64,000 nucleotides of DNA from Dysgonomonas sp. 520 (GTDB lineage: Bacteria > Bacteroidota > Bacteroidia > Bacteroidales > Dysgonomonadaceae). Position 1 is the stretch's first letter; each line of letters begins with the position of its first letter. A program made the translations under genes and the position numbers. The notes below the pieces were generated by a model. It was not told the origin of the DNA, searched no databases, and was given only the letters and a program-made list of their open reading frames with translations. The stretch is taken from the NCBI RefSeq assembly GCF_010501095.1, contig NZ_QVMP01000009.1, positions 1 to 64,000 of the forward strand. Reading direction: 5' to 3'. Below are positions 15,727 to 59,541 of this stretch, piece by piece.

Positions 15727-15802
15727 CTGTCTATAAATGCAGGAAGAATCCAATCGGCATTAGTTTCTGTTATATGGAAAACAAAATATACCATTGAAGT
15801 CA

Positions 15803-15927
15803 TCTAGACTTTTTAAATTATACTTAATTTTTGAGTTTTTGTCATGTTGAACGTAGTGAAACATCTAAAAAACAGATCCTTCGATACTCTCAGGATGACA
15901 AAATTGAATAAAACGAAAAAGTCTAGA
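15803..15927. repeat. MITE-like element, copy 1
   Basis: Terminal inverted repeats TCTAGACTTTTT (15803-15814) and AAAAAGTCTAGA (15916-15927) flank a core containing GTCATGTTGAACGTAGTGAA and CTTCGATACTCTCAGGATGAC. A nearly identical copy lies in the opposite orientation at 21217-21342, and the similarity extends a few bases beyond both ends. No ORF. The pair encloses fba, proS and NlpC/P60. Confidence 0.8.
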
Positions 15928-21216: not shown

Positions 21217-21342
21217 TCTAGACTTTTTTCGTTTTATTCAATTTTGTCATCCTGAGAGTATCGAAGGATCTGTTTTTTAGATGTTTCACTACGTTCAACA
21301 TGACAAAAGCTCAAAAATTAAGTATAACTTAATAAGTCTAGA
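21217..21342. repeat. MITE-like element, copy 2 (inverted relative to 15803-15927)
   Basis: Near-identical to the reverse complement of 15803-15927, including ends TCTAGACTTTTT and AAGTCTAGA and short flanks (GAAACCG on the left, TGACTTCGATG on the right). Its core reads GTCATCCTGAGAGTATCGAA. Confidence 0.8.
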
Positions 21343-21399
21343 TGACTTCGATGCTAATAAGTGCTTAATAAGCAGTATTTTAAGCTAAAAATAGTTTAA

Positions 21400-28453: not shown

Positions 28454-29845
28454 TTATTTTGCAGGAACAAGAACTCCTCCTTTGTATCTGCCTAATTCTT
28501 TTCCGGTTTCATCGATCAGGAAACCCTGTTTATTTCCATTTTCGTCCCAGCCCGAAACATGTGCTGTGCCATTGTGAAAGCGTTCAACCTTGTAATACAT
28601 TGCCGGAATAGCTTCTTCACCTTTGGTGTTGAGGTATCCATATTTATCACCTGTTTTCATGACAGACAGCCCTTCATATGATTGTTCTATTTTGTCATAT
28701 TTTATAGGAGTGATCTCTTTTCCGGTTTTATCAATCAGCCCGAATTTGTTGTTGAGCTTAACTACCGCTACACCCCCTTTAAAAAGATTAACATCATCGT
28801 ATTTCATGGGAGCTATTATTTGATTTTGTTTATTTACAAAACCGAATTTATTATTTTGTTGCACCCCTGCCAAACCTTCCGAAAAGCTAAGTGCCCAGTC
28901 GTACATTAAAGGGATAATTTCTTTTCCGGTTTTATCAATATGTCCGTATTTTTCATTCAGTTTAGCGACAACCACCTCGTCCGAGAACCAACGATACAAC
29001 AAGTCATATTTGTAAGGGACAATCACCTTTCCGGTTTTATCAATCACCCCGAATTTACCTTTTAAAGAAACAGTAGCCAGACCGTCTTCGAATTCGTTGG
29101 CTTCATCATATTTCAATGGAATAACCTCTTTTCCGGTTTTGTCTATATACCCTCTTTTTTCTTTTAGCTCAACAGCAGCAAGCCCTTCACTAAAATTCCA
29201 TACATTATCATATTTAAAAGGGATAACTTCTTTTCCATATACATCTACATAGCCACACTTGTCGTACGATTTTATTTTTGCCAAACCTTCCGAAAAAAAT
29301 ATCAGGATATTTCTCTCAATAGGATACTTATTATTTAAAACCTGTATAGTTGCTCTTTCATGACCTTGTTCCGAAGCTTTTTTATACCATTTTAAGGCTG
29401 TTGCCCTGTCTTCTTCTACGCCTACTCCAAACTCATAGCACACAGCTAAAGAAAATTGAGCCATTGCAAGACCTTGGTCGGCAGCTTTTCGATACCATTG
29501 GGCAGCAATGGTTCTGTTATATTCCGAGCCCGTACCATTATAATAGGTGTCTCCTAACAGCTTCTGTGCCATTGCAAAACCCTGATCGGCAGCTTTCCTA
29601 TACCATTGGGCAGCTTTTGTATAATCAATTTTTCCGCCAAATCCTTTTTCGTAATATATACCCAACGCACATTGAGCCCTGTCATAACCCTGATTGGCCG
29701 ATTTAAGATACCATTCTTCGGCTTGTTTATACTCTTTGTTTTTAAACAATTCGAATCCTTTCTGATATTGTTCCTCTGCGGTTGTTTGTCCGGTTAGTGT
29801 AACAAACATCAGGAGAGATGAGAGTATCAATAAAATCTTTTTCAT
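28454..29845 (-). CDS. exported Sel1-repeat and WG-repeat protein
   Basis: A 463-residue protein. Signal peptide 1-22 (LMFVTLTGQT). Residues about 23-170 hold Sel1/TPR-like repeats (AEEWYLKSANQGYDRAQCALGIYYEKGFG; AAQWYRKAADQGFAMAQ twice). Residues about 185-445 are WG repeats of the form GYIDKTGKEVIPLKYD...FSEGLA, about ten of them. Such proteins act as binding scaffolds outside the cytoplasm. Composition is closer to the chromosome than to the CTAG-rich element genes, so it may be a later acquisition by the element. A -7 box lies on the minus strand at 29881-29888. Confidence 0.85.
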   Translation of the reverse strand: MKKILLILSSLLMFVTLTGQTTAEEQYQKGFELFKNKEYKQAEEWYLKSANQGYDRAQCALGIYYEKGFGGKIDYTKAAQWYRKAADQGFAMAQKLLGDTYYNGTGSEYNRTIAAQWYRKAADQGLAMAQFSLAVCYEFGVGVEEDRATALKWYKKASEQGHERATIQVLNNKYPIERNILIFFSEGLAKIKSYDKCGYVDVYGKEVIPFKYDNVWNFSEGLAAVELKEKRGYIDKTGKEVIPLKYDEANEFEDGLATVSLKGKFGVIDKTGKVIVPYKYDLLYRWFSDEVVVAKLNEKYGHIDKTGKEIIPLMYDWALSFSEGLAGVQQNNKFGFVNKQNQIIAPMKYDDVNLFKGGVAVVKLNNKFGLIDKTGKEITPIKYDKIEQSYEGLSVMKTGDKYGYLNTKGEEAIPAMYYKVERFHNGTAHVSGWDENGNKQGFLIDETGKELGRYKGGVLVPAK

Positions 29846-35801: not shown

Positions 35802-35822
35802 CCGTCACTTTATAAGTGACGG
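35802..35822. promoter_or_regulatory. locus 1 near-palindrome between surface gene and AraC gene
   Basis: Arms CCGTCACTT and AAGTGACGG around TAT. The partner at 36919-36939 is its reverse complement except for one base. It lies 88 bases before the surface gene and 258 before the AraC gene. Confidence 0.75.
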
Positions 35823-36914: not shown

Positions 36915-36943
36915 ACCTCCGTCACTTATAAAGTGACAGAGGT
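36915..36943. terminator. downstream palindrome of locus 1, also a terminator
   Basis: The 21-base near-palindrome (36919-36939) is extended to ACCTC...GAGGT and followed by CCGTTTT, so it can terminate the AraC message. Its asymmetric centre is inverted relative to 35802-35822. Confidence 0.7.
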
Positions 36944-37047
36944 CCGTTTTATCCAATAATTAAGGTACAAATGTAAGTATTTTTTGTTGAAATCCAAATT
37001 ATGAATAAACTGTTATCTTTCAGTCTTAATATTCTCATATTCTTTCT

Positions 37048-58133: not shown

Positions 58134-58385
58134 AATATATCCTGCTTTTTCGTATACACAAAAATAAGAGTTTATTCGCAGATAAATAAATAATCGAGTG
58201 TCAATAAAAATAAAAAGACAAGTTGGACGGATTAACTTGTCTTTTGCCGCAGCTTCGGTTGCTATTTTTCTTTCTTCCCCAAAAGCAGTTTAACCGGATA
58301 ATATTGATAATTAAATGACGGGAAAATATCAAACTTAAGAAACTTTTTATATCTTTGTATGCTGATAATGAGACGATGAGGGTCT

Positions 58386-58406
58386 CTGTCACTTGTAGAG
58401 TGACGG
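58386..58406. promoter_or_regulatory. locus 2 downstream near-palindrome
   Basis: Arms CTGTCACT and AGTGACGG around an asymmetric TGTAG centre. Exact reverse complement of 59469-59489. It lies just beyond the AraC stop, as in locus 1. Confidence 0.75.
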
Positions 58407-58416
58407 ATATCTTTTT

Positions 58417-59232
58417 TTATGTATATTGTTTTACCCTATTTTTTCTTCTGATTTCGGAAGGAGAATTTCCCAGATTTTTGTGACAAAATTCGTTGAAATG
58501 AGACAAGGTGGCAAATTTATGATTTGTGCTAATCTCTTTCAGGCTTTTACTTGTCTGACAAATGTCCTGATACACTTGTTTGGCTCTCTGGCTTCTCATC
58601 CAGCTGTATGCCGATGTGTTGAAAACCCTTCTGAAACGTTTGTTAAACCCCGAATAGCTATAATTCATTCTTTCAGCCAGTTGGCGAACAGAACGCACAC
58701 TCAGGCTAAGGCTGCACACTTCTTCCGAAAAGCGTAAATCGTTACCGGGAAGCAGTTGGAAGAAACCTAGCAACTGCTCTTCCGAATAGAAATGTTTGAG
58801 GATATAGCCAAATTCTTTTAGCTTCAAATCAGACAGGTAGCTGTCGCAAATATCCCTATCTATATATTTTTTCACCAAGTCTATGTAGTTGTATATTACA
58901 TTTTTAATTGGTATTGATCGGATATTGTCTTCATGCAGCTTCATTGTAGAATCGGTAGTGGCAGAAGAAAGTATACTACAAAGCACAGATTCATTCGTGA
59001 AGCGAATTGATACTACTTCCGATTTCTTTACAGCTTTCAATACTACTCGTTCCTGAAAGGGGTAAAATGCCATATTCGAGGCTGTTATGCTAATTTCGGT
59101 GTAGGATGAAGAGCTGATTTGTAATTTACCTTCCATCACCAGAATTATTTTGTTTTCTCCCGGCTCAAGGCTCCAAGATTGACCTCCATCCAGTTGCAAA
59201 AATTCTATTGGGATATCATTTTCCGATTTCAT
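58417..59232 (-). CDS. AraC-family transcription regulator, locus 2
   Basis: A 271-residue protein, paralogue of the regulator at 36081. N-terminal cupin-like part (ENKIILVMEGKLQISSSSYTEISITASNMAFYPF) and C-terminal AraC domain (about 180-262; VRQLAERMNYSYSGFNKRFRRVFNTSAYSWMRSQR, SLKEISTNHKFATLSHFNEFCHKNLGNSPSEIR). The DNA-binding halves are much closer than the N-terminal halves, suggesting similar sites but different signals. Divergent from the surface gene at 59542 and flanked by the locus 2 palindromes. Confidence 0.85.
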   Translation of the reverse strand: MKSENDIPIEFLQLDGGQSWSLEPGENKIILVMEGKLQISSSSYTEISITASNMAFYPFQERVVLKAVKKSEVVSIRFTNESVLCSILSSATTDSTMKLHEDNIRSIPIKNVIYNYIDLVKKYIDRDICDSYLSDLKLKEFGYILKHFYSEEQLLGFFQLLPGNDLRFSEEVCSLSLSVRSVRQLAERMNYSYSGFNKRFRRVFNTSAYSWMRSQRAKQVYQDICQTSKSLKEISTNHKFATLSHFNEFCHKNLGNSPSEIRRKNRVKQYT

Positions 59233-59468
59233 TATTACTGTTGTTTAAGTGTTGTATATTAGTTTGTTAAACGAATGTTTTGCCAAAAAACATTTAAGTG
59301 TTATTTTTTATATTGCTCAAAATTCAGATTATCAACAGATTATCGTCTATGTTTCATCTCGTTTTATCAAAATGTTTTACGCGTGTTAAACTAAAAGCAT
59401 ATTTCTATATTTCTGCGTTTGTCTAATTGCTTAATAATTAAATAAATACAAATAGTTATTTGGTTTTT

Positions 59469-59489
59469 CCGTCACTCTACAAGTGACAG
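59469..59489. promoter_or_regulatory. locus 2 near-palindrome in the divergent intergenic region
   Basis: Arms CCGTCACT and AGTGACAG. Exact reverse complement of 58386-58406. It lies 52 bases before the surface gene and 236 before the AraC start. Confidence 0.75.
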
Positions 59490-59541
59490 ATATGTTAAAA
59501 CACAAATAAAACAGATAACAATTAATGCAAACAACAACCTT

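Follow-up and report, generated by a model that had tools for sequence, protein, structure and literature searches.

Matched inverted sites around AraC-family genes suggest invertible terminator switches ahead of surface-protein genes in Dysgonomonas sp. 520

The stretch of DNA analysed here (the window) comprises 64,000 nucleotides of Dysgonomonas sp. 520 and carries two loci of one design, in which an AraC-family gene lies between inverted sites, a surface-protein gene beyond one site, and a promoter-like box beyond the other (Table 1). An earlier note on this DNA had described 58386-58406 and 59469-59489 as exact reverse complements; they are, and the perfect match runs one base further at either end, making the pair exact (100%) over 23 bp, with cores GTCACT-TGTAG-AGTGAC and GTCACT-CTACA-AGTGAC. 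As also noted then, the other locus (locus 1) has the same arms around another centre; it is TTATA/TATAA there. The pattern GTCACT-N5-AGTGAC has four matches in the window at up to two mismatches, all of them exact, whereas 100 shuffles gave a mean of 1.17 and a maximum of 3.

Table 1. Features of the two loci in the window, with putative functions
Feature	Position	Strand	Details
Candidate distal crossover site (AraC 3' side)	58385..58407		core 58388-58404, centre TGTAG; exact 23-bp pair, site pattern
Candidate proximal crossover site (surface-gene side)	59468..59490		core 59471-59487, centre CTACA; exact 23-bp pair, site pattern
Putative outside promoter, -7 box TAtcTTTG	58350..58357	+	38 bp ahead of distal core, into segment; TAnnTTTG consensus
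Predicted terminator, site hairpin then T7 (58412-58418)	58380..58418	+	expected to end transcripts from the outside promoter as the segment now lies
AraC-family regulator gene, 271 aa, inside segment	58417..59232	-	Pfam HTH_18 4.1e-16
Surface/secreted protein gene, 243 aa	59542..60273	+	N-terminal part common to 26 aligned paralogs, C-terminal part variable
Locus 1 candidate distal crossover site	36921..36937		centre TATAA on + (TTATA from promoter)
Locus 1 candidate proximal crossover site	35804..35820		centre TTATA on +
Locus 1 AraC-family gene, 275 aa	36081..36908	+	Pfam HTH_18 5.3e-14
Locus 1 surface protein gene, 270 aa	34902..35714	-	
Locus 1 putative outside promoter, -7 box TACATTTG	36968..36975	-	into segment

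Of the surface proteins encoded at such loci across the genome, 27 were aligned; these share about 110 N-terminal residues (three with an insertion) and diverge widely beyond. This alignment (A2) leaves out the proteins of L018, L019, L028, L030, L036, both copies of L037, L038, L042b and L046, as well as those of the later loci L118 and L138-L142; several of the unaligned proteins begin differently, for example those of L018, L036, L038 and L118. A jelly roll was predicted at about residues 105-243 of the window's 243-aa protein, the one protein modelled, and through this model of pLDDT 69.8 likenesses appear at Z 8.8-10.5 to TNF, C1q, BclA, the BC2L-C lectin, phage tail fibres and birnavirus VP2. 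An adhesin-like role can be envisioned for these surface proteins.

Exact GTCACT-N5-AGTGAC sites occur 75 times in the 3.91-Mb host genome, against none for the reversed pattern. Allowing one mismatch raises the count only to 85 (3 for the control), and the arms are therefore nearly invariant. The survey took in the window and 35 further regions, which together contain all 75 exact sites, and assigned exact-arm pairs without regard to centre; this yielded 36 pairs and three single sites. Two of the single sites lie near contig ends (L029 and L039), and the third (L046) pairs with a site that has the same centre and one mismatch in its arms. The expectation of the earlier note, that centres would be matched within loci and variable between them, was borne out, with matched centres in 35 of the 36 exact-arm pairs and 15 kinds of centre across loci. 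Partner shuffling (20000 rounds) gave a mean of 3.44 matched centres and a maximum of 13, against the 35 observed.

Searching the genome with an AraC profile returned 43 hits at E 1e-25, six of them beyond the exact-site loci. Both sites are present at three of the six (L118, L138 and L139), with altered arms and matching centres; together with L046, centres match in 4/4 imperfect-arm pairs, which brings the count to 39 of 40 pairs once degenerate arms are included. L140 retains one site, its only candidate partner having three arm mismatches and an unmatched centre, and was scored as having lost its partner, outside the pair count; L141, which follows the L042b operon, is an AraC gene with no sites at all; L142, partly masked, was left uncounted. 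The sole unmatched pair among the 40, L037a (TGGTA/TGTAG), sits in a tandem duplication and looks like a hybrid between two cassettes. The kinds of centre number 17 when each is read from the AraC 3' side and TTATA and TATAA are kept apart, a total to which L138 and L139 contribute two. Ten of the 15 kinds are found at more than one locus, in segments as little as 63% alike, so that the centre is not a tag that makes each locus unique.

These counts uphold the proposal that both ends of a locus change in concert, since centres differ between loci and yet agree within them. A quickly built tree of 35 AraC proteins, with several unsure forks and without L042b, which has no AraC gene, implies at least 20 changes of centre, and yet a single pair has ends that disagree; alignment A1 leaves out L023, L033, L039 and L046. 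Segments that are 89-93% identical can differ at both ends together, as with GGGTA in L023, L024 and L026 versus GAGTA in L031 and L032. Exchange of whole cassettes could explain some of these centre changes.

Two readings of the matched pairs involve no inversion at all. The sites might be paired operators that the AraC protein occupies together, drawing the DNA between them into a loop; the centre would then be a spacer that is not read, and shared descent or gene conversion would keep its two copies alike. An AraC gene is indeed flanked in 35 of the 36 exact pairs, and related AraC proteins often go with the same centre, but an unread spacer should drift independently at the two ends, whereas 39 of 40 pairs match; the earlier note had likewise argued that independent operators would not need matched centres. 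Matched pairs also enclose segments that lack AraC (L042b, L053-L055, L057, L131, L132 and L137). L042b, the exception among the exact pairs, is a 411-bp segment (L042 3698-4108) with matched sites, an outside promoter and a terminator around no AraC gene, and we regard paired operators as very improbable. Slightly less credible still is a mobile cassette, with the sites as the ends of a transposing AraC element and no switch. Many copies, conserved ends and the tandem duplication at L037 would suit such an element; the conserved unit nevertheless extends past both sites, with the promoter flank to one side and the leader of the surface gene to the other scoring as expected at 37 of 37 loci (L045 reversed), and the AraC gene takes up the segment of about 1.06 kb, no second ORF of at least 150 aa being listed inside any pair.

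A conservative site-specific (tyrosine) recombinase needs just such sites, with arms that stay the same and a centre that may vary so long as it is matched. Because the region of strand exchange must be the same in both sites, the centre would be held matched within a locus and left free to drift between loci. Inversion, an outside promoter and a terminator are all elements that the earlier reading lacked.

Outside the distal site, at 38-40 bp and pointing into the segment, stands TAnnTTTG in 34 of 36 loci; this is the -7 consensus described for Bacteroides (PMC4747536). The two loci without it there are L022, which has TATACTTG, and L045, a reversed locus whose outside box is one base from consensus (TATATCTG). 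Within the segments, TAnnTTTG was absent from the surface-gene strand within 230 bp of the proximal site. In the AraC direction it occurs inside the segment, at most 200 bp from the proximal site, in L019 and L025, where AraC may consequently have its own promoter. Four loci have the box on the surface-gene strand within 300 bp beyond the proximal site. By eye, a recurring ATAAT/GATAAT element is also seen between promoter and site and again inside the proximal site; it could be an operator or an accessory binding site.

Orientation A, as we use the term, is that of both loci in the window, with the AraC 3' side towards the outside promoter, and B is its reverse. At the AraC 3'-side site, 33 of 36 loci have at least five T in a row after the hairpin, a number that drops to 3 of 36 when the segments are inverted in silico. 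The hairpin there gains a median of 7 further base pairs, as against 3 after inversion, and on the promoter strand the distal stem shows an extension in 35 of 36 loci. Folding gave a mean of -22.7 kcal/mol versus -15.6 for the inverted form, the AraC 3'-side hairpin being the more stable in 34 of 36 loci. For both the T-run and the folding counts, the site scored at L045 was the one on the AraC 3' side, although the promoter now lies at the other. Since at most loci hairpin and T-run come together in A and not in B, A should stop transcripts from the outside promoter, and in B these should run on through AraC and the surface gene. Two arrangements support AraC and surface gene as one unit: at L140 (2700-4181), where one site is lost, a promoter-like box directly precedes AraC and then the surface gene, and at the L042b locus an AraC gene follows the surface operon (L141 2998-3744). 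The relatives speak against the terminator in part: ten of their segments carry the box at 37-39 bp, and seven of these have no T-run, which is seen only in L053-L055.

If the segments invert, reversed copies are expected in some assemblies. The evidence on orientation comes from assemblies, with one genome of the genus, in which loci were compared with one another. Leave-one-out scoring of flanks at 37 loci placed 36 in A and L045 in B (-60.6 against +30 to +121), L045 having been left out of the reference set for flank scoring and folding. At L045 it is the 3' end of AraC that lies towards the surface gene with its typical leader, and the 5' side faces the outside promoter. L138 and L139 are in A and L118 in B, so that the AraC-bearing host pairs with both sites comprise 37 in A and 2 in B, L042b being excluded and the comparison running between loci and assemblies. 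L142 is A-like, and L140, with AraC ahead of the surface gene, is perhaps locked in the ON state discussed below. Of 13 AraC segments that the relatives carry no more than about 3 kb from a recombinase, 10 are in A and 3 in B, and one relative genome holds L051 and L052 in opposite orientations. Such a spread of orientations suggests that the segments may still invert in living cells. L045 was at first the sole locus in B, and an arrangement with exactly one ON locus was considered; that claim was dropped when the AraC-profile survey added L118.

The 23-bp form of the site is present in 5 of the 101 genomes of the family, the host included. In the four relatives, five pairs adjoin a tyrosine recombinase of 409-449 aa (L051, L052, L056, L057 and L058), and none was seen within the stretch fetched for L053-L055. 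At L057, two small segments (52-435 and 2613-2972) near a recombinase have TAnnTTTG-like promoters inside and resemble ordinary invertible promoters with the same type of site. The earlier note had left recombination, gene conversion and co-selection for mutual pairing open as causes of matching; recombinases adjoining the pairs in relatives, together with the occurrence of both orientations, favour the first of the three.

The host genome has 28 PF00589 matches, 27 of them above the cut-off, and one protein stands apart in its likeness to the site-adjoining enzymes. This protein, P0005 (423 aa, G000:C6:55267-56535), has arm-binding, SAM-like and catalytic integrase domains and is 52% identical over 420 aa to the enzyme of L056; the next-best host proteins reach at most 33% over at least 100 aa in that comparison, in which the ORF used for L069 and L078 is probably not the integrase itself, and the next host hits to P0005 stand at 33% and 32%. 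Identity of P0005 to homologs adjoining such pairs is 37-59%, and 45-59% where the arms are GTCACT or GACACT. Across the relatives the arms are of the types GTCACT, GACACT, ATCACT, ATCTCT and ACCTCT, and in an enzyme tree of 22 rows the three ATCTCT and several GTCACT enzymes appear to cluster, with a raw count of 9 changes of arm type.

Homologs of P0005 (E 1e-40 or better) are found in 28 of the 101 genomes, including all five with the 23-bp site; the other 23 are without it. A scan blind to centre in 33 regions around these homologs recovered 26 arm-similar pairs; centres match in 17 of them, each in a different region, and six runs of the same scan on dinucleotide shuffles gave 1-7 pairs and no matched centres. 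Shuffles served as the control here because sequence reversal preserves palindromes and is unfit for the purpose. In 16 of the 33 regions the scan found no matched pair; L118, whose degenerate pair it missed, is among these, and it likewise missed an 18-bp inverted pair beside the recombinase of G090 (L094). P0005 is likely to be the enzyme for the host's loci, acting in trans, to judge from these comparisons of sequence. Against this stand the 16 regions without a matched pair, the 23 genomes that have a homolog and lack the 23-bp site, and its location near one locus only, about 6 kb from L118 and on another contig than all the remaining loci.

The same features can be cast as an antisense RNA, in which a short RNA from the outside promoter would pair, through a distal UGUAG loop, with the CUACA loop in the 5' leader of the surface-gene mRNA, and RNA pairing would keep the centres matched. 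The two hairpin loops are complementary by construction, and the promoter (34/36) with its hairpin and T-run (33/36) makes a plausible short transcription unit in most loci, the more so as the distal stem extension lies on the promoter strand in 35 of 36. Pairing alone, however, would permit arms that co-vary, whereas the 12 arm bases are nearly invariant and it is the outer stem that varies; it predicts neither reversed segments nor a recombinase beside the pairs that relatives carry, most of which lack the T-run. At the gathering score, Rfam gave no family at the window's loci or at L045, L026 and L038, the window matching only tRNAs. We rank an antisense RNA below inversion because the arms are near-invariant, two loci are reversed and the relatives' recombinase adjoins the sites, and consider it unlikely as the whole explanation; it could be a second use of the same sites.

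We therefore return to inversion and propose, with high but not complete confidence and on the strength of sequence comparison, that the 23-bp pairs are crossover sites of a tyrosine recombinase and that the AraC segment is an invertible terminator switch served by a fixed outside promoter. The stretch of 1.06 kb between the sites, with its AraC gene, would be the invertible segment; the near-invariant arms (TCYGTCACT) would be the enzyme's binding sites, and the 5-nt centre would fall within the region of strand exchange and so be identical in both sites. The promoter beyond the distal site would stay in place and point into the segment. In A, a transcript would end about 50-60 nt from its presumed start at the site hairpin and the T-run that the segment supplies, leaving the locus OFF; in B, the T-run would have been moved away and the promoter would read through AraC into the surface gene, both as a single unit, turning the locus ON. 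P0005 would invert the loci in trans. We infer ongoing inversion with P0005 as its enzyme and A and B as the OFF and ON states, and both window loci are accordingly predicted to be OFF.

Two loci do not fit the proposed switch fully, L037a through its unmatched centres and L118 through its terminator. L118 is in B and yet has a T6 after its promoter-side site, although with a weaker hairpin (-13.1 against the mean of -22.7 kcal/mol), so that the terminator rule is not universal. Two side observations attach to these loci. The tandem duplicated locus L037 (G000:C22:195151-206068), with its unmatched first copy, offers a natural test of whether a mismatch blocks inversion. At L118 (1412-2598), reversal, altered arms and a T-run off the rule coincide within about 6 kb of P0005.

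The nearest mechanism we found is the CwpV switch of C. difficile as described in PMC2784873. There too the promoter lies outside the inverted DNA, the target is a surface protein, an intrinsic terminator arises in the OFF orientation, its stem-loop sitting at the repeat junction with U's after it, and the tyrosine recombinase, RecV, is unlinked; the enzymes are likened here by role, not by sequence. The CwpV segment, in contrast, is 195 bp long and holds no gene, whereas the segments here are about 1.06-1.2 kb with an AraC gene, and that paper reports finding none of the CwpV repeats elsewhere in the genome, whereas here some 40 loci differ in their centres. Because 35 of 36 pairs have AraC inside, where CwpV-type segments are gene-free, the present loci would work like CwpV and are not placed in the same class.

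Master invertases of B. fragilis (Tsr19/BF2766, Tsr0667 and Mpi), in the accounts given by PMC4747536 and PMC12632263, likewise show one recombinase acting at distant loci, TAnnTTTG promoters and surface molecules as targets. A further likeness is that the OFF form of IVp-I prevails in B. fragilis (PMC4747536, PMC12632263). In those systems as described, the promoter is inside the inverted DNA or genes are shuffled, whereas here the promoter would be fixed outside and the regulator gene inverted. The fim system of E. coli, as PMC2784873 describes it, resembles the present loci in having recombinases (FimB/FimE) that act on inverted repeats to control a surface structure, and differs in that the promoter is inverted, at one locus. 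Near fimbriae genes of Providencia stuartii, 844 bp of DNA with a gene inside have been described as a putative invertible segment (PMC5903667); that gene encodes a recombinase and not a regulator, and a single locus is involved. Among literature titles and the starts of abstracts, which are weak evidence of absence, we found no AraC gene inside an invertible segment. Terminator-type inversion and master invertases are both known, and what would be particular to this genome is that the regulator gene itself is inverted, at about 40 loci.

Such a number of switches of one design would be about three times the 13 regions under Mpi in B. fragilis (PMC4747536), with the regulator itself as the inverted cargo. 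The system predicts a way for a single cell to display only a small part of a large set of adhesin-like proteins. It is conceivable, at rather less than even chance, that this amounts to display of nearly one protein at a time: one recombinase acting in trans would serve about 40 flip switches that combine terminator and regulator, with only a couple of them ON. The centres would then be tags by which the ends of one locus exchange with each other in preference to rearranging with other loci, and AraC, made from the ON locus only, may feed back on its own or other loci. As a natural collection of paired sites, the loci also lend themselves to studying how strictly the exchange region has to match and whether it keeps loci apart from each other.

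Elsewhere in the window lies an inverted repeat of 132 nt (15789-15920 and 21225-21356, 96% complementary, with 5.3 kb between), and short related copies lie near 55 and 55927. The coding region at 28454-29845 contains repeated units of 72 nt and 50 nt, at spacings of 102-204 and 108 nt.
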